Shown: positions 43,960-54,662 of the stretch, in pieces
Numbering within the stretch: the stretch's first letter is position 1
Layout of the letters: each line of letters opens with the position of its first letter
Assembly (NCBI GenBank): GCA_022842245.1
Contig: JALHPZ010000026.1
Coordinates: 1-64,000 of the forward strand
Reading direction: 5' to 3'
DNA: 64,000 bases
Source of the DNA: Gemmataceae bacterium
Lineage (GTDB): Bacteria; Planctomycetota; Planctomycetia; Gemmatales; Gemmataceae
Notes under the pieces: generated by a model
Seen by the model: the letters and a program-made list of their open reading frames with translations, nothing else
What the model was told of the DNA's origin: nothing
Database searches by the model: none
Translations under genes and position numbers: made by a program

Positions 43960-46900
43960 TTAGCCGACGAACACGCCGCCGTTGAAGTCGGGCAGGCCGT
44001 CCATCCCGATGAATTGCGGTTCCGACACGGTCGGCGAGAGATTCTTGCCGAGGTACGTGCGGATTTCGTCGCTGCCACCGACCACCGTGCGGATGTCGGC
44101 GAGGTTGTCGCCGTCGATGTCCTTCACCGCGACGCGGACGCCCGTGCGGGAGTTCGGGTCGCCGGCGAAGAAGTTCGCGAGCGGGCTGAGCGTGGCACCC
44201 TTCGAGGTGATCAGGGTTTGGGCGTCGAAGACCGTGACGCGCGGGCCGCCGCTGGGGCCGCCGCTGGCGACGATGTCCGCGAAGCCATCGCCGTTCACAT
44301 CGCCGACGGCGACGAACACGCCGTCGCGGAGGGTCTGCTCGAAGGCGAAGAAATCGTTGAACAACGTGGTGCGGGTGGTCTTGAGCGTGGCGCCGTCGAT
44401 GGCGGAGACGCGCGGCCCGCCGTCGCGGCCCGCGGCAACGACAAGGTCTCCGGTACCGTCGCCGTTCACATCGCCGACGGCCGTCCGGGCGCCGCCGCGG
44501 AAGTTCGGATCGTCGATGCCGAAGAAGTCGGCGATCTGGGTGAACGTCGCCCCGTCGAAGACGCGGACGCGCGGGCCGCCGCCGACGTCGGGGCTGATGA
44601 CGATGTCGGCCTTGCCGTCGCCGTTCAGGTCGCCGGTGGAGACGAACACGCCGCCGGTGAAGCTGGCTTCGAACGGGGCGACGCTGAACAGTTCGCTGCC
44701 GTCCTTGCCGCTGAGGACGCGCACGAGGCTCGCCCCGCCGGGGCCGGAGCCGACCACGACGTCTTCGATGCCGTCGCCATCCACGTCGCCGGAGGCCACG
44801 CGGACGCCGCCGTTGAACGCGGCGGAGAGTGCCGTGGACGACACCTGATTGCCGTTCGCGTCCACGACGCGAACGACCGGGGGTACGCCATCGGAGCCGA
44901 TCGCGCCGTTCGGGGTGCCGACGAGCAGCGGGTTCTGCGGTGGGGCCACGTCGTCGTTGAGAATGGTCGCGACGCCTTGGGCCGTCGCGATCGTCGCGTT
45001 CACTGCCGCCGAGAGTTGCACGAAGATCGTCTCGTCGCCCTCGACGACGGTATCGCCGACAACGTTCACGGTCACGGTCTTCGTCGTTTCGCCGGGGGCG
45101 AACGTGACGGTTTGCATCACGGCGGCGTAATCGTCGGGCGCCGTCGCCGTGTTATCGACCGTGGCGACATTCACGGTCACCGTCTTCTCGGTCGCGCCGG
45201 TCAGGGTGATCGTGAAGGTGACGGCCGTCGTGCCGGAGTTGCCTTCCGTCACGACCACGTTGTCGATGGCGAGCGAGGGCAGCGGGTCGTCGTTCGTGAT
45301 CGAGCCGGTGCCGGTATCGGTCAGGAGCGTCGCGCCGTCCACGCCCGACAGCACGACCGTAAAGGTCTCGTCGTCCTCGTTGGCGAGGTCGCCGTTCACC
45401 GTCACGACGACCGTCTTGGTCGTTTCGCCCGGCAGGAACGAGAGGACGTCGCTCACGGCGGTGTAGTCGCTCCCCGCGGTCGCGGTGCCGTCGACGGTGT
45501 CGACGGCCGCGGTGACGGTCAGACCGCTCGGTGCCGAGAGCGTGACGGTGAACGTGAAGATCGTGCCGCCGGAGTCGCCTTCGGCGAGAGTCACATTGTC
45601 GATCGAGAGCGTCGGCATGGCGTCGTCGTTGGCAACGGTCACCTGCGCGCTCGAAGCCGCCCCGATGACGCCACCGTTGGTTGCGCCGCCCAGGATGGCG
45701 GTGAACATCTCGTCGTCTTCGAAGGTCGCGTCCTGCGTCACGGGCACAGACGCGGTCGCGGTCGTCTGGCCGTCGGCGAAGGTGACGGTGACGGGGGTGC
45801 CGTCGAAGTCCGAACCGGCGGTCGCGGTGCCGTCGGCAAACGTGACCGTGACGGACAGTTCGCCGGCGGTGCCGCCGGTGCGGACGAGCGTCAGTTCGGC
45901 CGTCGGGCCAGTTTCCGAGACCGAGAAGTTCAGGTCGCCGAATTCGACGATGCCCGTCGGCGTATTCGCCGTTGTCAGGCCGCCCAATGCTGCGGGGCTA
46001 TCGCCAAGCAGGGTCGCTTCGCCGGTGGCGAGATTGATCGCATACAGGCTGGAAACGCCGCCGACCGTGAGCGCGGCGAATCCCGTGCCGGACGATACGG
46101 GTGCGCTGCCCGCGGTCACGCGCACGTTGGAGGGGATGTTGAAGCCGTTGACATCGAGAATATCGAGCGGCGATCCCCCCAGGGTAATCGGTATCGGGTT
46201 GGCCTGGGTACCGTTGTTCGGCGGGTTTTGGATATTCAAGGTATCCGTATCGGCGCTGATGGTGTACTGCGTGGTGACGCCGCCGCTGAGGGGCTGTCCG
46301 AACGCGTTCGTATACGCCGTGCCGCTTGCTCCCGTGACACCGGAACCGTTAATGAACCCGTCGGGTTGGGTTCCTGCGACGCCCTTGTTGCCGTCGAGCG
46401 GTAGTCCGTCGTTGGGATTCGCTCGGGCGTTAAAACCGTCACTGTTCGTGATCCGGATCCGGTCCACGGTCGGGTTGAAGTCGAAGCCGTACCCGGCAGT
46501 CGAGGTATCCGGCAAATCGATCTTCGATCCCATGTCATCGACGTAGGAGATCGCGCTTGGCGCGATAGCGGTCGCAACGCCGGTTTGGGGATCGATCCGG
46601 TAAATCGTCCCGGTGTCGGCCGTGCCGTCGATGCCGAGTCCGAATAGTTGGCCAGTCTGCGGACGGAAGTCGATGCCGACGAGCGTCTCGCCCGCGACAA
46701 TCCCGGAAATGGAAACCGAGAACGGATTCGCCACGTTGTTACTGAGGGTTCGGCCCAGGAATTTACCCGTGTTGTCCAGCGCGATCACCGGCGTCGCGCC
46801 GAGGTCGCTCTGGAACGCCACGCTCGTCACGGTCGCCGGCGTCGTGCCGATCGGGCCGACGGACGTCGCTTCGCCGGTAACGAGGTCGATGCGGTACAGG

Positions 46901-49719
46901 CCGTCGACGCCGCCGACCGTCAGGACGGCGAGGCCGGTGCCGGCCGTCACGGGCTGATTCGATCCGGGAGCGTTGACGTCCGCGAGAATGTCGAAGCCCT
47001 TCACGGCCGTGAAATCCAGGGGCGATCCGCCAAGCGTGATGCCGGCGATGAGAACCTGCGTTCCGGCGTTCGGCGGGTTCTGAATGAAGAGGCTATCGGT
47101 CGCCGCGTCCAACGTGTGCTGCGTCGTGACGCCGCCGTTGTTCGGGAAGGAGTTCGAGTACGCGGTGCCGCCGACCGTCGAGGTGCCGCCGTTGATCACG
47201 CCGTCGGGTTGTATGCCCGAGACGCCCGCGTTGCCGTCGGCAGGTAGACCGGTGTTCGGATCGGCGCGCCCGTTGAACGAACCCGCGATGATGCGCAGGC
47301 GGTCGACGGCCGGGTTGATGTCGATGTCGTAATTGACCGTCGCCGGGTCGGGCAGGTCGATCGGGTTACCGGCGCCGTCCACGTAGGCGATCGCGCCGAT
47401 CGGCCCGACGGGCGTTGCGAGGCCGGTGGCGATCGAGATCGCGTAAAGGGTCGCGGTGTTCGCCCCGTGATTCACGCCGAGGCCGTACAGCTGGCCGTTC
47501 TGCGGGCGGAAGTCGATGCCGACGAGCGTCTCGCTGACGTCGACGCCGCTGATCGCGATCGGCGTGCCGGCCGAGTCGGGGTTCGTGCTGGCGAACGGCA
47601 CCAGCGTCGCGCCCACGAGGGCGAAGCCGGTGGCGGCGTTCACCGTGAACGTTTGCTGAGGATCGTTCTCCGTGATCGTCAGCGTCGCGACGTTCGGCGA
47701 ACCGATGACGGCTCCGTTGCTTACCGAAGTGATGGTGAGCGTGACGGTTTCGTTGCCCTCAAAAATCAAATCCTCGAGTATCGGAATGGTCAAGAACGTC
47801 GACAGACTGTTGTTCTCGAACGTCGCCGTAAATGGTCCGGCGCTGAAATCCAATCCGGCCGTGGCGGTACTGCCGGTCGAGTTGACGGTCACCGTGACCG
47901 GTCCGCTCGACCCTCCCGTCCGCTGGAAGCTGAGCAACGCGACGCTGTCGCCTTCGTTCACGGTGATGGAAGTGGAAACCAGCGCCACCGTGCCGGCCGG
48001 CGCATCGGCCAGCGTGAACCCGGAAAGGGCCGTCGGGGCCGCACCGATATCCGTGGCTTCTCCGGTCGTCAGATTGATGCGGTACAAGCGATTCACGCCA
48101 CCGACGACCAGCGAAGCGACGCCGTGACCGGTTGCCGGCGTGGACGACGTCGCGACTCGTATGCCCGCGGGAATATCGAAACCGTTGACGTCCGTGAAGA
48201 CGAGCGGACCGCCACCCAGCGTGATCGGCACCGACTGCGATTGGACTCCGTTGTTCGGCGGGTTCTGGATCGAAAGCGAACCGGTCGCGGCGTCAATGGT
48301 GTACTGCGACGTGACGCCGCCACTGAGCGATTGACCAAAGGCGTTCGTGTACGCCGTCGCGCTGACGCCCGTGATTCCACCCCCGTTGATGACACCATCG
48401 GGGTTGATCCCGTTGCCGGCGTTCTTGTCGTTATCGACCGGCATCCCATTGTCTGGATTAGCCCGGCCGTTGAAGCCCGCGCTGTTCGTGATGCGGATCC
48501 GGTCGACCGTCGGATTGAAATCGAAGCCGTAACCCGTCGTCGCCGGGTCGGCGAAATCGATCTTGCCCCCCATCGTGTCGACGAACGCGATGGCGCTGGC
48601 CGCGACCGCGGTCGCGACCGCGGTTTGCGGATCGATCAGGTAAAGCGTCGCCGTATCGCTCGTGGCGTTGACGCCCAACCCGTAGAGTTGGCCGGTCTGC
48701 GGGCGGAAGTCGATGCCGACTAGCGTCTCCCCGGCGTCCACCCCGGAGATGGTGGGCGACGTCACCGACGTGCCGGGAATCGCGGTATTGAAGCGGACCA
48801 GCGCGTTCGCGGCCTTGTTCAACGCCACCACCGGCAACCCGCCGAGATCGCTCTGCACCGCCAAGCCTTGCACCGCGGTCGCGCCGTTGCCCACGTTGCC
48901 CACCAGCGTCGCCGTCGCGTCCACCAGATTGATCGAATACAGCCCCGTCGTGCCGCCGACGTTCAGCACCGCAAACGCCGAACCCGTCGTCACCGGCATG
49001 TTGCTGGCCGGCGCGTTCACGCCCGCCGGGATGTCGAAGCCGTTCACATTCGTGAAATCCAGCGTGTTCCCGCCGAGCGTCACCGTCTGACCCATCGTCT
49101 GCGTACCGGAATTCGGCAGGTTCTGGATGAACAGCGAATTGCTGGACGCATCGAGCGTGTACTGCGTCGTAATCGGCGTGACGACATACTGCGGCTGACT
49201 ATTCGTATACGCCGCCCCGTCGACGGTCGTCGAACCGCCATTGATGGCCGAATCGGAACCGGCGAGCGTGCCCGTGTTCGGGTTCACCCGGAAATTCAAG
49301 CTCCCGGCCACCACGCGCACCCGGTCGACGGCCGGATTGAAATCCACGCCGTAGCCCACCGTCGCCGGATCGGGCAGGTCGCCGGCGCCCGTGATGCCGC
49401 CCGCCGTGCCGACGGCGGTCGCGAACCCCGTGCGCGTCGAAATGGAATACAGCGTCGCCGTGTCCGCCGTCGCGTTCACGCCCAGCCCGTACAACTGGCC
49501 GTTCTGCGGGCGGAAGTCGATGCCGACGAGTGTCTCGCCCCCCGCCAGATTCGCGATCGCCGTCGTCTGCGTGATCGTCGGACTCGCCGTATCGAAGCTC
49601 AGCAGGTTCGTGCCGGAGAGCGCGAACGCCACCGCCGGCGTCGAGCGGTCCTCCAACTGCTCGATCCCCACCAGCGGCTTGCGAACCAACGGACGCTTCG
49701 TTTTCGTTCGACGACTCAT
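43960..49719 (-). CDS. Giant surface protein: DUF4394 repeats, Calx-beta repeats, FG-GAP domain
   Basis: The 1919-aa protein begins KPLVGIEQLEDRSTPAVAFA, the LEDR motif. Four DUF4394-type beta-propeller units follow, each marked by GETLVGIDFRPQNGQLYGLG or a close variant, F(N/D)P..DR.R(I/V) and AYTN. They are arranged as two pairs, each pair followed by Calx-beta units. Four Calx-beta domains are visible (VNEGDSVALLSFQRTGGSSG, then others ending TENDP, VANDD, TNDD and LNDD); Asp/Glu there suit Ca binding. The last about 300 residues are FG-GAP repeats (ASGDVDGDGIEDVVVGSGPG and similar) ending GGVFVG. It is probably Ca-stabilised and displayed outside the cell, in adhesion or matrix. No catalytic domain was seen. 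Confidence 0.92.
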   Translation of the reverse strand: MSRRTKTKRPLVRKPLVGIEQLEDRSTPAVAFALSGTNLLSFDTASPTITQTTAIANLAGGETLVGIDFRPQNGQLYGLGVNATADTATLYSISTRTGFATAVGTAGGITGAGDLPDPATVGYGVDFNPAVDRVRVVAGSLNFRVNPNTGTLAGSDSAINGGSTTVDGAAYTNSQPQYVVTPITTQYTLDASSNSLFIQNLPNSGTQTMGQTVTLGGNTLDFTNVNGFDIPAGVNAPASNMPVTTGSAFAVLNVGGTTGLYSINLVDATATLVGNVGNGATAVQGLAVQSDLGGLPVVALNKAANALVRFNTAIPGTSVTSPTISGVDAGETLVGIDFRPQTGQLYGLGVNATSDTATLYLIDPQTAVATAVAASAIAFVDTMGGKIDFADPATTGYGFDFNPTVDRIRITNSAGFNGRANPDNGMPVDNDKNAGNGINPDGVINGGGITGVSATAYTNAFGQSLSGGVTSQYTIDAATGSLSIQNPPNNGVQSQSVPITLGGGPLVFTDVNGFDIPAGIRVATSSTPATGHGVASLVVGGVNRLYRINLTTGEATDIGAAPTALSGFTLADAPAGTVALVSTSITVNEGDSVALLSFQRTGGSSGPVTVTVNSTGSTATAGLDFSAGPFTATFENNSLSTFLTIPILEDLIFEGNETVTLTITSVSNGAVIGSPNVATLTITENDPQQTFTVNAATGFALVGATLVPFASTNPDSAGTPIAISGVDVSETLVGIDFRPQNGQLYGLGVNHGANTATLYAISIATGLATPVGPIGAIAYVDGAGNPIDLPDPATVNYDIDINPAVDRLRIIAGSFNGRADPNTGLPADGNAGVSGIQPDGVINGGTSTVGGTAYSNSFPNNGGVTTQHTLDAATDSLFIQNPPNAGTQVLIAGITLGGSPLDFTAVKGFDILADVNAPGSNQPVTAGTGLAVLTVGGVDGLYRIDLVTGEATSVGPIGTTPATVTSVAFQSDLGATPVIALDNTGKFLGRTLSNNVANPFSVSISGIVAGETLVGIDFRPQTGQLFGLGIDGTADTGTIYRIDPQTGVATAIAPSAISYVDDMGSKIDLPDTSTAGYGFDFNPTVDRIRITNSDGFNARANPNDGLPLDGNKGVAGTQPDGFINGSGVTGASGTAYTNAFGQPLSGGVTTQYTISADTDTLNIQNPPNNGTQANPIPITLGGSPLDILDVNGFNIPSNVRVTAGSAPVSSGTGFAALTVGGVSSLYAINLATGEATLLGDSPAALGGLTTANTPTGIVEFGDLNFSVSETGPTAELTLVRTGGTAGELSVTVTFADGTATAGSDFDGTPVTVTFADGQTTATASVPVTQDATFEDDEMFTAILGGATNGGVIGAASSAQVTVANDDAMPTLSIDNVTLAEGDSGGTIFTFTVTLSAPSGLTVTAAVDTVDGTATAGSDYTAVSDVLSFLPGETTKTVVVTVNGDLANEDDETFTVVLSGVDGATLLTDTGTGSITNDDPLPSLAIDNVVVTEGNSGTTAVTFTITLTGATEKTVTVNVATVDNTATAPDDYAAVMQTVTFAPGETTKTVTVNVVGDTVVEGDETIFVQLSAAVNATIATAQGVATILNDDVAPPQNPLLVGTPNGAIGSDGVPPVVRVVDANGNQVSSTALSAAFNGGVRVASGDVDGDGIEDVVVGSGPGGASLVRVLSGKDGSELFSVAPFEASFTGGVFVSTGDLNGDGKADIVISPDVGGGPRVRVFDGATFTQIADFFGIDDPNFRGGARTAVGDVNGDGTGDLVVAAGRDGGPRVSAIDGATLKTTRTTLFNDFFAFEQTLRDGVFVAVGDVNGDGFADIVASGGPSGGPRVTVFDAQTLITSKGATLSPLANFFAGDPNSRTGVRVAVKDIDGDNLADIRTVVGGSDEIRTYLGKNLSPTVSEPQFIGMDGLPDFNGGVFVG

Positions 49720-49926
49720 GTGCAGACTCCAGGTGCGAAGAGGTAATCGATACTCACCGGGCGAGTTGATCCGGTTGCCGGCGACAGTCCATTACCCCGA
49801 CGAGTCTACCGAAACAATTGCACGGCGAAAAGAATAATCAGGGACAAATGAGAAAGTTGGACAAATTGGGGTATTTGCCGACACGAATATCCGAAATGAG
49901 TCGACATTCTTAGAACGCAAACGGCA

Positions 49927-49963
49927 GCGGGCGGGATCTCGAAAAAATCGAAATCCCGCCCGC
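49927..49963 (-). terminator. Terminator hairpin downstream of recA
   Basis: Arms GCGGGCGGGATCTCGA and TCGAAATCCCGCCCGC pair over 16 positions with one mismatch, around a five-A loop. It lies 18 bases after the recA stop and before the start of the giant surface-protein gene. The T-tract after it is weak (TGCCGTTTGCG). Confidence 0.65.
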
Positions 49964-49981
49964 CGTCGCCAGGCCCGCCGA

Positions 49982-51088
49982 TCACTCCGCCACGGCTTTG
50001 CTCTTCTTCTTCGGTGCCGGCGCCGGTTCGTCCTCGAGCGCCGTCTCGTCGTCCGCCCCCTCGAGCGCGGCCGCTTCCAGGATCTTCGGGGCACGCTTCG
50101 CCAGAATCTCCTTGATGATCGCGTCCCGGATCTCCGGGTTCTCCCGCAGGAACTTCCGCGCGTTCTCCTTCCCCTGCCCCAGCCGCGTGTCGCCGTAGCT
50201 CCAGAACGCCCCGCTCTTCGACACGATCTCCTCCTCCTCGCCGATCTTCAGCACGTCGTTCTCCAGGTCCACGCCGTGGCTGTAATACAGTTCCATCTCG
50301 GCCGTGTGGAACGGTGCGGCGATCTTGTTCTTCACCACCTTCACCTTCATCTCCGCCCCGATCGGCTCGTCGCCGTCCTTGATCTGCGCCGCCTTCCGCA
50401 CCTCCAGCCGTACCGAGGCGTAGAACTTCAGCGCCAGCCCGCCCGTCGTCGTCTCCGGGTTGCCGTACATCACGCCGATCTTCTGCCGGATCTGATTGAT
50501 GAAGATCACGCACGTCTTCGTCTTGTTGATCACCGGATTCAAAATCCGCAGCGCCTGGCTCATCAATCGAGCCTGCACGCCGACCGACGAATCGCCGATC
50601 TCGTTGTTCAACTCCGCCTTTGGCACCAGCGCCGCCACCGAATCGATGACAATGATATCCACCGCGTTCGACTTCACAAGCATCTCGGCGATCCGCAGCG
50701 CCTCCTCGCCGTAGCTCGGCTGGCTGACCAGCAGGCTCTCGAGGTCCACGCCGATCTTCCGCGCCCAGGTCGGGTCGAGCGCGTGCTCGGCGTCGATGAA
50801 CGCCGCCACGCCCCCCTGCTTCTGCGCGTTCGCGATGGTGTGCAGTGCGATCGTCGTCTTCCCGCTCGATTCCGCGCCGTAGATCTCGATCACGCGGCCG
50901 CGCGGCAGCCCCTTCCCGCCGAGCGCGAGGTCGAGCGCCAACGAGCCGGTACTGATGCCGACGATGTCCTTGAGCGACGTCTCGACATCGCCGAGCGACA
51001 TGATCGAGCCTTCGCCGAACTCCTTGTTGATTTCGGACTGGACTTTGACGATTTCCTTGCTGAATTTCGGCTCGTTTTTGGCGGCCAT
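49982..51088 (-). CDS. recA: Recombinase RecA
   Basis: Start chosen at ATG 51088 ([20 protein letters not shown]); a Met 15 codons upstream is unlikely. The 368-aa product has the Walker A loop [14 protein letters not shown], Walker [16 protein letters not shown], loop L1 [18 protein letters not shown], and the L2 region [20 protein letters not shown], all canonical. The C-terminus is acidic then basic ([20 protein letters not shown]). RecA forms filaments on single-stranded DNA, drives strand exchange and triggers LexA self-cleavage. It appears monocistronic, with a terminator after it and a LexA-like palindrome before it. Confidence 0.97.
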
Positions 51089-51141
51089 CGGGCGGCCCTC
51101 GCGGATGGTGAACGGATGTCGCAACGGGGCCACTCTATCCG

Positions 51142-51155
51142 CGAACTAGTGTACA
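51142..51155. promoter_or_regulatory. Possible LexA (SOS) operator upstream of recA
   Basis: The sequence CGAACTAGTGTACA resembles the Gram-positive-type LexA box CGAAC-N4-GTTYG with one change in the core of the right half (GTAC for GTTC). It is centred about 60 bases before the recA start, a normal operator position. The LexA site of this lineage is not known to me, so this is a candidate only. Confidence 0.35.
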
Positions 51156-51323
51156 AGTGAAGGGCCGTAGGCAGAGAATTTTCAAAAATCTCCCATCCTA
51201 CTTCTAACTCGACCCGACATAGTGCCAACCGCACAGCTTCCAAAAAAGCCCTGCTTACCGAAAAGCAAAAGGGGAGGCAACTAAATCAAAGTGAACGGCG
51301 CCCCTTTTGCCCCCTCCTCCGCT

Positions 51324-52136
51324 CTATAGGATGTCGAACGCCGTTACGATCCCAAGTAGCTCCTTTGACTGTTTCGCAGTTTCCGCCTTATCAAGCACTA
51401 GGATAAAGGGACTTGCATTCGGCTTTGCGAATGCCTTTGCAACCTCGCCGATTGGCCTGTCCGGTTTCTCGACCGCTGCCTTCTCCAACAACGAATTCCA
51501 CTGCCGTTTCGCATCCTTGACGGACATGCCGAGACGTTTGGGTCGATTGCCGGGATCGTCTCGAAGAAAGGCGGCGACCTGGGCATCGGTAATGACCCAC
51601 CACTCTCCCTCGAAGTAGATCGGAAGAGTCGAGAACGAATTGGTAAGCATCACTTGCCGAACGAAGCTGATGGGCTGCCAAGGCTCGGCGACGATTGGCG
51701 ACCGGACCATTATCTCTCGCAGTTTGGTCATGGGGTCGTCATTGTCGTTCATAAGGGCATCCTCAAAGAGTAGAGCAAGTTCGATAGCGTGTTCGGTCAA
51801 GTGCCGTGCGCCGGCACCCTGATGAAACGCATCGTTCCGGGCATGGTTCACCAACTTGTAAAGGGCGGCCTTGTCTGAGTGCCAGTTAGCGAATTGCGCG
51901 TCCAAGTCGCCGCCCAACGCCGACTTCCCGGCGAGGGCAAGAAGTCGATCCTTGTACCTTCCAAGGGTCGCCGCCTCCTTCAAGAGGTAACAGCCAAGCC
52001 GCTCGAATACGAAGAGGAGCTCATCGAACGCCTCGGCATCTTTCTGGGCCGACAGACGAGCATTACGAAGTTCTTGTAGGAAGTTCTGCTTTGCTTCGGC
52101 TAAGCGAGACCACCAATCATCAGACGCATACGCCAC
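51324..52136 (-). CDS. HEPN-like domain fused to a CBS-domain pair
   Basis: Translation starts at GTG 52136. In 270 aa the first half (about 1-130) is all-helical and contains HARNDAFHQG, with Arg100 and His105 forming the R-x4-H catalytic motif of HEPN ribonucleases, including the typical Asn after Arg. The second half reads as two CBS units: IMVRSPIVAEPWQPISFVRQ...STLPIYFEGEWWVITDAQVA, and RPIGEVAKAFAKPNASPFIL...LLGIVTAFDIL at the very C-terminus. CBS pairs bind adenosyl ligands (AMP, ATP, SAM, c-di-AMP), so an RNase or RNA-binding domain gated by a nucleotide is suggested. It may be a solo toxin-like or defence protein. No antitoxin gene was recognised. Function is inference. Confidence 0.6.
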   Translation of the reverse strand: MAYASDDWWSRLAEAKQNFLQELRNARLSAQKDAEAFDELLFVFERLGCYLLKEAATLGRYKDRLLALAGKSALGGDLDAQFANWHSDKAALYKLVNHARNDAFHQGAGARHLTEHAIELALLFEDALMNDNDDPMTKLREIMVRSPIVAEPWQPISFVRQVMLTNSFSTLPIYFEGEWWVITDAQVAAFLRDDPGNRPKRLGMSVKDAKRQWNSLLEKAAVEKPDRPIGEVAKAFAKPNASPFILVLDKAETAKQSKELLGIVTAFDIL

Positions 52137-52206
52137 GCTTTATCTCCGGCATGAAGACCGACCGTATGTTCGGCAAGAAAAAGGGACAGGCACGCAAAGT
52201 GAACGC

Positions 52207-52425
52207 AACTCATTTTACTCGCGGCAGTCACTTCTCTCCCATTCTCGTCATCGATCTCGGCCGTTTCAACGAAGAAATGCCCCCCCGGCGAACTGAGCGG
52301 CGGCCGCACGCCAATGTCGACATGAGTAACCACAGGCGGAATGACGTCGCGCCGCTCGCCGATGCCGGCAAGCAGAGAGTCGCAAGACTATACGCCGCCA
52401 CCCTCGGCACGCTGATCGTCACGCC
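52207..52425. repeat. Dispersed palindromic repeat, decayed copy A
   Basis: This stretch matches 53865-54066 in the same orientation over about 200 bases, with clear blocks ACTCGCGGCAG, CTCGTC-TCG-TCTCGGCCG, TTCAA-GAAGAA and CGCCG-TCGCCGATGC. Its internal palindrome is more degraded than in copy B. It occupies the gap between the HEPN-CBS gene and the ORF at 52587, for which no gene is supported. Confidence 0.65.
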
Positions 52426-52586
52426 TGCGAGCCTAAAGAAGGACGAGAAGAAGAAGGGATCACGATCTCGCAAAAAAGCAAGCGATAAGGCCACGGCATT
52501 TCGCAGTGGCACGAATGTGTTTGCAGCCACACCGGCAATTGATAGAATTCTTACGATTTGGACGCACTCGTAACGCGAGGGCCGTC

Positions 52587-52889
52587 ATGGCGCAATTAGT
52601 GGAAGACATCTTGGAACGGAACAGCGAATTTAGGCTCTTGGAACCGCTGACTGTCACAAATCGAGCTCGCTTGCCGGTGACGGCAGTACCAGTGGACTCC
52701 CTGGTCGACCTTTACAAGGATAGCAAGGAGACGGCTGATCATTTACTACAAAAGCCTCCTGAATCCATCAGTCTACCAATCTCGGGCGAGTACCTAACGA
52801 ATCCTATTCGCGATGCATTTCGGCATGGAATACGAAGAGTCCGCCGAGGAGATCATCGCGAATATAACCGACACGCGACACTGTCTTAA
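52587..52889 (+). CDS. Hypothetical protein, possibly the first part of a frameshifted gene
   Basis: From ATG 52587 the frame gives 100 aa (MAQLVEDILERNSEFRLLEP at the start, PPESISLPISGEYLTNPIRD later). No domain was recognised. Codon use is less GC-biased than in the flanking core genes. After about residue 75 the frame becomes Arg-rich (FRHGIRRVRRGDHREYNRH), typical of out-of-frame reading, while the +1 frame at the same place reads like normal protein (see next entry). The authentic product may therefore continue in the other frame. Confidence 0.45.
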   Translation: MAQLVEDILERNSEFRLLEPLTVTNRARLPVTAVPVDSLVDLYKDSKETADHLLQKPPESISLPISGEYLTNPIRDAFRHGIRRVRRGDHREYNRHATLS

Positions 52890-52953
52890 GGTAATATCGA
52901 TTTTAGAAACACAGCATAGCTTGCAATTCCTTAGTAATGGATCACACCCATGA
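52813..52953 (+). CDS. Short ORF in +1 frame, probable continuation of the preceding ORF
   Basis: From ATG 52813 this frame encodes 46 aa (MHFGMEYEESAEEIIANITD, then HCLKVISILETQHSLQFL). It looks more protein-like than the overlapping frame and its TGA overlaps the ATG of the zinc-ribbon gene (ATGA), the coupling pattern seen throughout this window. A single-base indel between about 52797 and 52860 would fuse it to the preceding ORF into one protein of about 120 aa. Alternatively it is an independent small ORF. Confidence 0.4.
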   Translation: MHFGMEYEESAEEIIANITDTRHCLKVISILETQHSLQFLSNGSHP

Positions 52954-53801
52954 TACGACTACATTGCCCAGCGTGCGGCAAACGGCTCAAAGCACCCGAG
53001 GACGCTAGAGGCAAATCGGTACAATGCCCTAAATGCTCCGCCAACTTGGTCGTGCCCCCAGTAAAAATGGCTATTCCAATTCTTCCAGTTATTGCTCCAG
53101 ACCAACCAAGTACCTTAATAGAAGATGATGATCCGGAGGAACAATTATCATCTAATACGAAGGCCCACCCGCCAAAAAAGCGGGAAAATGACGATCACGT
53201 CAGCCAAACAAAAACTTATGGCAATAAATCACGCTGTCAATCTTGCGGAAAAACGATCAAACCCGGAGTCGGGCATTGCCCACGATGTGGCGTGAGCAAT
53301 CGAAAAACCACAAACAATGACGACAAAGACGAATCATATATAGAGTTCCGCCTGAAACGAGATCGGGCAACGCATGATCAAGTCCGCACACTCCGTTGGC
53401 TTGTGATAATTGACGCTGTGATCTCGTTTTTATTGTTTCCAGCATATATGTTTGAGGGCGCGATAATTGAAGCCTTGGCCCCACGCCAAGGGGTTGAAAA
53501 TATAATTGCGCCTCGGGCGAATGCCCCTTTGCTTATGTTTTTGTGCTCAATATTGTTGATATTCATGGCACTCTCTTTGGTTGCTTGGGTAGGACTATAT
53601 AACCTGAAACCCTGGTCAAGATGGCTATTTCTTGGCATTACATTTGCAGGATTTGCTTTGCAAGTTATTTTTGGATTGTTCGATTTTTCCTACCGTTGGG
53701 GACTTATAAGTGCAATTGATTCATCGAGTCAATTATTAGTAGGGGCGATTCTTGCCATGGTTTTTGCCTCACCTTTACGTGAAAAATTCGATGCTAAATA
53801 A
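52950..53801 (+). CDS. Zinc-ribbon membrane protein of unknown function
   Basis: The 283-aa protein starts with a zinc ribbon (MIRLHCPACGKRLKAPEDAR, Cys 6, 9, 26, 29). After a charged linker there is a second ribbon (CQSCGKTIKPGVGHCPRCG), then about four hydrophobic spans (LVIIDAVISFLLFPAYMF, LLMFLCSILLIFMALSLVAW, WLFLGITFAGFALQVIF, LLVGAILAMVFASP). The N-terminal ribbon is shared with the kinase at 30743-33592 and the propeller protein at 56833-58710. The gene is plainly AT-richer than its neighbours, especially in the 3' half, suggesting recent acquisition or relaxed codon use. Role unknown. Confidence 0.75.
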   Translation: MIRLHCPACGKRLKAPEDARGKSVQCPKCSANLVVPPVKMAIPILPVIAPDQPSTLIEDDDPEEQLSSNTKAHPPKKRENDDHVSQTKTYGNKSRCQSCGKTIKPGVGHCPRCGVSNRKTTNNDDKDESYIEFRLKRDRATHDQVRTLRWLVIIDAVISFLLFPAYMFEGAIIEALAPRQGVENIIAPRANAPLLMFLCSILLIFMALSLVAWVGLYNLKPWSRWLFLGITFAGFALQVIFGLFDFSYRWGLISAIDSSSQLLVGAILAMVFASPLREKFDAK

Positions 53802-53864
53802 CTCCTCCACTTGGGTGGATCGCGGTCAGGCGGCGGCGGAGGGGCATTGATATCAAGAGAAGGG

Positions 53865-54066
53865 AACGCGGCTCATTTATTACTCGCGGCAGATAGTTTG
53901 CTCCCCACTCTCGTCGTCGGTCTCGGCCGGTTCAAAGAAGAACTTCCCGGCGAACGGCGCGGCGTCAGTTCGCAGGTGTCGGACACGTCAAGCCACCGGC
54001 GGACTGACGCCACGCCGTTCGCCGATGCAAACGAGCCTAGTTTCACACGACTACTCACCGCCGCTC
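53865..54066. repeat. Dispersed palindromic repeat, copy B
   Basis: Related to 52207-52425 (direct orientation). It contains an inverted repeat with 31-base arms at 53948-53978 and 53994-54024 matching at 28 positions. On the minus strand the right arm reads as GERRGVSPPV, a peptide I associate with spurious small ORFs in planctomycete genomes, which points to a widespread repeat family. It separates the zinc-ribbon gene from the convergent membrane-protein gene and could also act as a terminator. Confidence 0.7.
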
Positions 54067-54517
54067 ACTTCCTGCCGCCGAATTCCTTGTTCGCCACGAA
54101 GATCGGGAAGACGATGTTCACGACGATGCCCAGCCCGATGCCGATGCGCGAGCTCCACAACGCCCAGCCGCCGCGATAGCGGTTCGCGTGATAGCAATGG
54201 ATCGACCAGACTAGGCCGAAGATCGGCGCCCAGAAGGCGACGACGCCGAGGATCGGGAACAGCCGCGAGAGCAACGGCGTTTCGGCCGAGTCGTAGTGGA
54301 TGCGGTCGTCCACGATCCGTGCGTGGCGTTGCCGGGGCATTTCCAGCAGCATGATCAGCAGCCCCAGCACGAACCCGAACGCGACGGCGATGCCCAGTAT
54401 CGCCGGGTTGAGCGGCGGACGCTCGAACGCCACCGCCGCGCCGACCAGTCCGAAGAAGGCCGCGAGCGCGAACGGGATCGCCCAGCATTCGAATCGCAAG
54501 TTCGATATTGCAATCAT
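54065..54517 (-). CDS. Small integral membrane protein, unknown
   Basis: The 150-aa product has about four hydrophobic spans: CWAIPFALAAFFGLVGAAVA, LGIAVAFGFVLGLLIMLLEM, LFPILGVVAFWAPIFGLVW and IGIGLGIVVNIVFPIFV. Between spans 2 and 3 is a short cytoplasmic-type stretch (PRQRHARIVDDRIHYDSAET). The GC-rich codon pattern matches core genes, unlike the adjacent island. No family recognised. Confidence 0.72.
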   Translation of the reverse strand: MIAISNLRFECWAIPFALAAFFGLVGAAVAFERPPLNPAILGIAVAFGFVLGLLIMLLEMPRQRHARIVDDRIHYDSAETPLLSRLFPILGVVAFWAPIFGLVWSIHCYHANRYRGGWALWSSRIGIGLGIVVNIVFPIFVANKEFGGRK

Positions 54518-54662
54518 CAGACCATGCTACCAATAACGGGGCCGCAAGGTTTCGGCCAGCCGAGAGGTATCAACACGCACCGGCTCGTCGGCAGCGGAAT
54601 CGGCGCAAGTCCTTGCGGGTCCACTCGCTTGACCGGCCATCGGGAGTGGGTCCGGAATTCTG

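Follow-up and report, generated by a model that had tools for sequence, protein, structure and literature searches.

The locus upstream of recA in this Gemmataceae genome raises the question of what a single protein that joins a HEPN-type domain to a CBS pair does for its host, and how its gene came to lie there. The window, i.e., the whole stretch of DNA analysed, comprises 64,000 nucleotides (positions 1 to 64,000 of contig JALHPZ010000026.1). A sequence-only reading had marked a reading frame with a GTG start at 51324-52136 without giving its strand; the frame was found as described and lies on the minus strand. It encodes 270 aa and was delineated as a HEPN-CBS fusion from a 38-member family alignment and a structural model with a pLDDT of 89. 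By eye, a GGAG lies 7 nt upstream of the GTG, and an in-frame TAA directly precedes the start. The gene is single-copy in its own genome. When the window protein was searched alone, the Pfam CBS match fell below the cut-off (E 0.0027, 18.5 vs 24 bits), NCBIfam gave a weak match to IMP dehydrogenase in the CBS region, and PADLOC gave no match.

The N-terminal part (51741-52136, minus strand) had been proposed to be of HEPN type, and its modelled structure agrees with this. In the full-length model, residues 8-130 form a HEPN four-helix fold and residues 136-270 a CBS pair. The N-terminal half modelled alone from 27 sequences (pLDDT 88, pTM 0.83) has helices at residues 8-32, 34-52, 58-69, 89-102, and 108-130. 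In a VIA-align comparison of this model, ranks 1 to 12 were all HEPN or HEPN-type entries, with Z values of 9.5 to 6.9 and an rmsd of 2.3 to 4.1 Å over 91 to 110 residues; for helical bundles, a Z below about 13 may reflect merely a common arrangement, and these values lie within the range reachable by chance. The best entry was 8xeh (Z 9.5, 2.4 Å over 100 residues) and the twelfth was sacsin (3o10, Z 6.9), with which the first non-HEPN entry, the four-helix bundle 1tqg, was tied. About 8 of the 12 top structure titles name HEPN or a HepT pair, and 1wty, 1wwp, and AbiV were counted as HEPN-type, in part on the basis of PMC3710099.

Other searches with this half gave little. The best Foldseek E value was 0.35, a PDB profile search with the N-terminal alignment produced chance-level matches only, and a comparison of the N-terminal profile with four HepT sequences by hhalign found nothing. 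The Pfam HEPN matches were weak (E 0.018 for HEPN_Apea and E 0.029 for DUF4145, each in 1 of 38 members), as were the matches to CARF-HEPN/Csx1 (1 to 3 of 38 members). The HEPN RNase layout, as set out in PMC3710099, has an Rx4-6H motif at the end of helix 3, a polar residue after the arginine, and an acidic residue in helix 2 in many HEPN families, not all. The window protein has this layout, with R100-N101-x3-H105 at a helix end and E45. The motif lies in HARNDAFHQG (residues 98-107; codons at 51816-51845, minus strand), and Arg100 and His105 are numbered as the sequence-only reading had them. In the N-terminal model, R100 is near the end of helix 89-102, H105 is in a loop, and E45 is in the second helix (34-52). 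Since the sequence profiles gave no firm HEPN match, the assignment was deduced from the fold ranking together with four invariant and correctly placed active-site residues.

Conservation was assessed in alignment A2 (38 rows), in which E45, R100, N101, H105, G107, R111, and E125 are invariant in all 38 intact members; a lack of conservation of the arginine and histidine had been named earlier as evidence against a HEPN nuclease, and both residues are present in every row. Because the other 37 members share only 24-40% identity with the window protein, the invariance of R-N-x3-H was judged to be more than chance. The motif is also present in 46 of the 47 ORF pieces and is missing only from the 3' portion of one broken gene. 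In A2 the window protein replaces L001, and nine of the 47 pieces were omitted: L009, L010, L017, L021, and L038 as identical or nearly identical to retained rows, the two pieces of L039, a broken gene, and L043 and L044 because of their shortness. The locus scan relied on three patterns, one of which contains ARND-x-x-H and thus favours motif-bearing members. The plasmid members found by tblastn, as well as L041 and L042, which carry RNAEVH and fall outside that pattern, are free of this bias and retain R-N-x3-H nonetheless. L097, which was found last and is outside A2, carries RNDKSH. The structure alignments A3 and A4 (27 rows) comprised the window protein and 26 of 32 intact related loci, with the plasmid rows and L024, L030, L034, L035, L036, and L038 omitted.

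The C-terminal half (residues 136-270 plus stop; 51324-51731, minus strand), formerly read as two CBS units, was indeed modelled as a CBS pair and matched CBS-pair structures with Z values up to 14.5 (AcuB, CBS-CP12, and MtCorB with ATP). The matched structures include complexes with AMP, ATP, ADP, Ap4A, and SAM. Foldseek gave E values down to 1.2e-5, and Pfam recognised CBS in 37 of the 38 members (best E 5.1e-8). Within this half R160, L164, S167, P172, and G262 are invariant (38/38), W153 is kept in 36 rows, T or S occupies position 265 in 37, and D or E occupies position 268 in all 38. Position 186 in CBS1, where an acidic residue is usual, is Q in the window protein and is D or E in only 4 of 38 rows, and position 268 in CBS2 is E instead of D in 28 of 38. 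In the alignment, the residues typical of a ligand site are partly conserved, and binding of an adenosine-type ligand is put forward as a prediction.

The family is widely scattered. Relatives were detected by tblastn on 13 plasmid records (Cupriavidus, Burkholderia, Acidovorax, and Deinococcus), with a 14th found via another query, and a pattern scan derived from the first alignment, A1, yielded 34 genome loci and one viral contig. The genome loci, many of them in metagenome-assembled genomes, belong to Burkholderiales and other proteobacteria, Binatota, Verrucomicrobiota, Acidobacteriota, and Latescibacterota; L044 is a fragment labelled Gemmatimonadetes. Together with the window's own phylum and the Deinococcus plasmids, the intact members represent seven phyla. 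Two different members occur about 4 kb apart on Burkholderia glumae plasmid p86s5p (L004; 7983-8759 and 12235-13014), and the copy in a Rhodocyclaceae metagenome-assembled genome (L039; 700-1487) is split into two overlapping frames. First scans with the single protein returned nothing from genome contigs, viral contigs, or phages, and a single-protein scan gave no match in 58 of 59 relatives and 391 of 392 genomes of the phylum (overlapping sets), the lone match being the own genome. With A2, a search of 294 genomes of the window's phylum gave matches in 34 genomes besides the own one, all within the CBS half; a few started up to about 30 positions before it, and none spanned the whole HEPN domain. 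The 293 other genomes of the phylum contained no full-length match. These matches agree with the CBS identity of the C-terminal half and confine the full protein to its own genome in the sample. PADLOC gave weak matches in a few members (MkoB at E 1e-4 in 2 of 38). In a tree of 39 rows, the window protein sits on a long branch (1.8), closest to rows from Acidobacteriota, Verrucomicrobiota, and Binatota, and the deep forks are unresolved; this topology fits horizontal spread and points to no donor.

The gene lies on an acquired island, as supported by comparison with the sister species. An insertion of 2,870 bp (51188-54057) is absent from the latter, in which both flanks align nearly back to back: window positions 49474-51187 correspond to positions 6-1720 of the sister locus L075 (93.8%) and 54058-54548 to positions 1724-2216 (90.3%). 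In the sister species (G001), recA is 98% identical, and 68 bases separate it from the next gene. The GC content of the insertion is 51.9%, compared with 64.8% in the rest of the window, and the GC3 of the HEPN-CBS gene is 64.9%, compared with 91-92% for the two flanking genes (recA, 91.1%); in 596 stretches of the same size from the rest of the window, the GC content was always higher than in this gene. The insertion holds two genes, the HEPN-CBS gene, which is upstream of recA on the same strand, and a gene at 52950-53801 (plus strand, 44.7% GC) for a 283-aa zinc-ribbon protein with a hydrophobic, membrane-like C-terminal half. This second product has two zinc ribbons, the N-terminal one being of a type that is widespread in relatives. 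Pfam showed no integrase or transposase in either gene. The zinc-ribbon part gave weak matches in 28 of 31 genomes, the own genome included; among the matches listed in the 31 genomes, there was no close full-length relative of the product other than itself.

The sequence-only reading had placed the gene next to a repeat-bracketed island beside recA. The island and recA are both there, but the gene is inside 51188-54057 rather than adjoining it, and the supposed brackets, direct copies of a dispersed repeat at 52215-52399 and 53880-54062, flank the neighbouring gene at 52950-53801 and not the HEPN-CBS gene. The repeat has 17 matches in the genome, including these two, and measures about 125-185 bases; one copy contains a 31-nt inverted repeat (90% complementary). 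The insertion starts about 100 bases upstream of the likely recA ATG (51088-51187) and parts recA from the gene that adjoins it in the sister species, and the upstream promoter region of recA may have been lost or altered through it. A candidate terminator between the HEPN-CBS gene and recA was rejected, its hairpin being no stronger than those of shuffled sequences (z -0.22). Downstream of recA is a 1,919-aa repeat protein (43960-49719, minus strand), whose internal repeats match the sister locus in short pieces.

In an all-against-all comparison of the neighbours of the family's genes, no gene family was common to more than four loci, those being mostly closely related, and therefore no obligate partner gene was seen. 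Shedu, an AAA ATPase, and a UvrD helicase were found near the copies on Cupriavidus plasmids. On plasmid unnamed5 of Deinococcus sp. QL22 (L097; 2504-6474) the HEPN-CBS gene and hsdR share 13 bp, and 3.7 kb downstream on the same strand there is an N-6 DNA methylase; this copy thus seems to belong to a type I restriction locus. An N-6 methylase is also near the other Deinococcus copy, a type IIG enzyme adjoins the gene at L023 and L034, and HipA-type genes are near it at L006. Ordinary neighbours at other copies include HpaB, a MutS-like gene, and DnaG. PADLOC was run on 93 pooled neighbour proteins, of which 91 were picked by hand from 213 candidate ORFs and two came from L097, and gave 224 families at E 1e-10 for the set as a whole. 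When ten neighbours were searched with PADLOC one by one, two were clear restriction-modification proteins, two were other or partial matches, and six gave none; Pfam, likewise applied to ten, recognised no defence family in any. The named defence genes beside some copies are suggestive only and amount to no claim of enrichment.

The two folds, the active-site conservation, the scattered distribution, and the insertion in the window genome were established by computation; how the window protein acts, i.e., its RNase activity, its dimer, its ligand and trigger, and its part in defence, is inferred as follows. The C-terminal CBS pair would bind an adenine-type nucleotide, and infection or stress would change this ligand and thereby alter the pairing of two protomers. 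The N-terminal HEPN domains would then form a common R-N-x3-H active site and cut RNA, and the ensuing arrest of growth or suicide of the cell would serve as a defence against phages. RNase activity with gating by an adenine-type ligand is plausible, and we consider it probable that the protein as a whole is a ligand-gated HEPN RNase, a horizontally spread one-protein system most likely directed against phages through growth arrest or suicide. The anti-phage reading is favoured because of the precedent of DS-11, the defence neighbours of some copies, and the signs of mobility (single copy, empty site, GC3, and plasmid copies). DS-11, described in the DefensePredictor paper (2026, PMC13092281), is a one-protein CBS+HEPN system that blocks phages in E. 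coli. According to that paper, both domains are required, as either HEPN catalytic mutations or the CBS substitution Y157A abolish phage defence.

The CBS pair could instead read the energy state of the cell in the service of general stress or RNA turnover, with the HEPN domain adjusting RNA stability, as PMC3710099 proposes for HEPN-CBS fusions. Ordinary genes surround several copies, and the window gene is upstream of recA on the same strand, as might be expected for such a role. The patchy distribution, the plasmid copies, and the insertion are more in keeping with an accessory gene than with a core regulator, and DS-11, of the same make-up, blocks phage (PMC13092281); this role was accordingly considered unlikely. 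The nearest solved folds, those of HEPN toxins from HEPN-MNT pairs, would suit a toxin restrained by a separate antitoxin gene. Such a pairing was judged highly improbable given that no neighbour family recurs beyond a few, mostly closely related loci, and that the neighbours in the window are recA and the zinc-ribbon membrane-like gene, with no nucleotidyltransferase. An equally small probability was allowed for a CBS pair that merely dimerises and senses nothing, the HEPN domain being constitutive or triggered by another factor. The Q at position 186 (D or E in 4 of 38) and the replacement of D by E at position 268 in 28 of 38 rows speak for this, but all rows share R160, S167, P172, and G262, nearly all have W153, and DS-11 requires a CBS tyrosine predicted to touch adenine (PMC13092281).

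If the preferred reading of a ligand-gated anti-phage RNase is true, a CBS pair can itself serve as an immune sensor. We raise more tentatively, as a possibility that falls short of likely, that the family comprises phylum-crossing immune effectors complete in themselves, each a HEPN RNase over which an adenine nucleotide of the host would have direct control via the CBS pair. No dedicated signal-making enzyme would be needed, and infection would be sensed as a change in ordinary metabolites, unlike in CBASS or type III CRISPR, where a dedicated messenger serves this purpose; the lineage would be separate from DS-11 and has no clear match in the 2023 PADLOC catalogue. A family with the make-up of DS-11 offers many natural variants and invariant residues for finding the CBS ligand. 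Natural material is available in Burkholderiales, Deinococcus, Acidobacteriota, Verrucomicrobiota, Latescibacterota, and the window genome, with its insertion and empty site.

Among known systems, the N-terminal fold is like that of the HepT toxins of HEPN-MNT systems (8xeh, 8yuf, 7ae6, 5yep, and 7bxo; Z 7.9-9.5), which pair with a separate MNT antitoxin, whereas the window protein has a fused CBS pair and no such partner. The C-terminal fold is like that of the CBS pairs of AcuB and CorC/CorB-type proteins (Z up to 14.5), whose role is the control of acetoin use or metal transport and not of a HEPN domain. The sequence-only reading named no described system of exactly this layout, but precedents exist. 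HEPN-CBS fusions with ligand-controlled RNA degradation, i.e., the same gating idea, were proposed by Anantharaman et al. in 2013 (PMC3710099), and DS-11 (PMC13092281) is a second precedent. The 2013 HEPN-CBS and HEPN-CBS-HD fusions (alr3009 and a Pelobacter propionicus protein), compared here by description, likewise combine HEPN with CBS and a proposed ligand-regulated RNA cleavage; some carry an extra HD domain, unlike the window protein (PMC3710099). Besides DS-11, our search of the available literature found no paper describing such a CBS+HEPN defence protein. The kind is thus already described, and what appears to be new is the family as delineated, its conserved residues, and the insertion with its empty site.

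DS-11 may represent a diverged or a distinct lineage, because no family relative was found on enterobacterial plasmids (tblastn with four different queries) or in E. coli genomes (blastn with two genes of the family, a search too insensitive to exclude homology to DS-11). Its make-up, compared by description only, is the same, with HEPN and CBS in one protein, and the position of Y157 within its CBS region suggests that the HEPN domain comes first, as in the window protein. Y157 is the CBS tyrosine predicted to contact adenine, and PMC13092281 leaves open which adenine derivative is read. Where DS-11 needs this aromatic CBS residue, the window family has the near-invariant W153 in its CBS half, and by analogy the window protein probably resembles DS-11 in its working.
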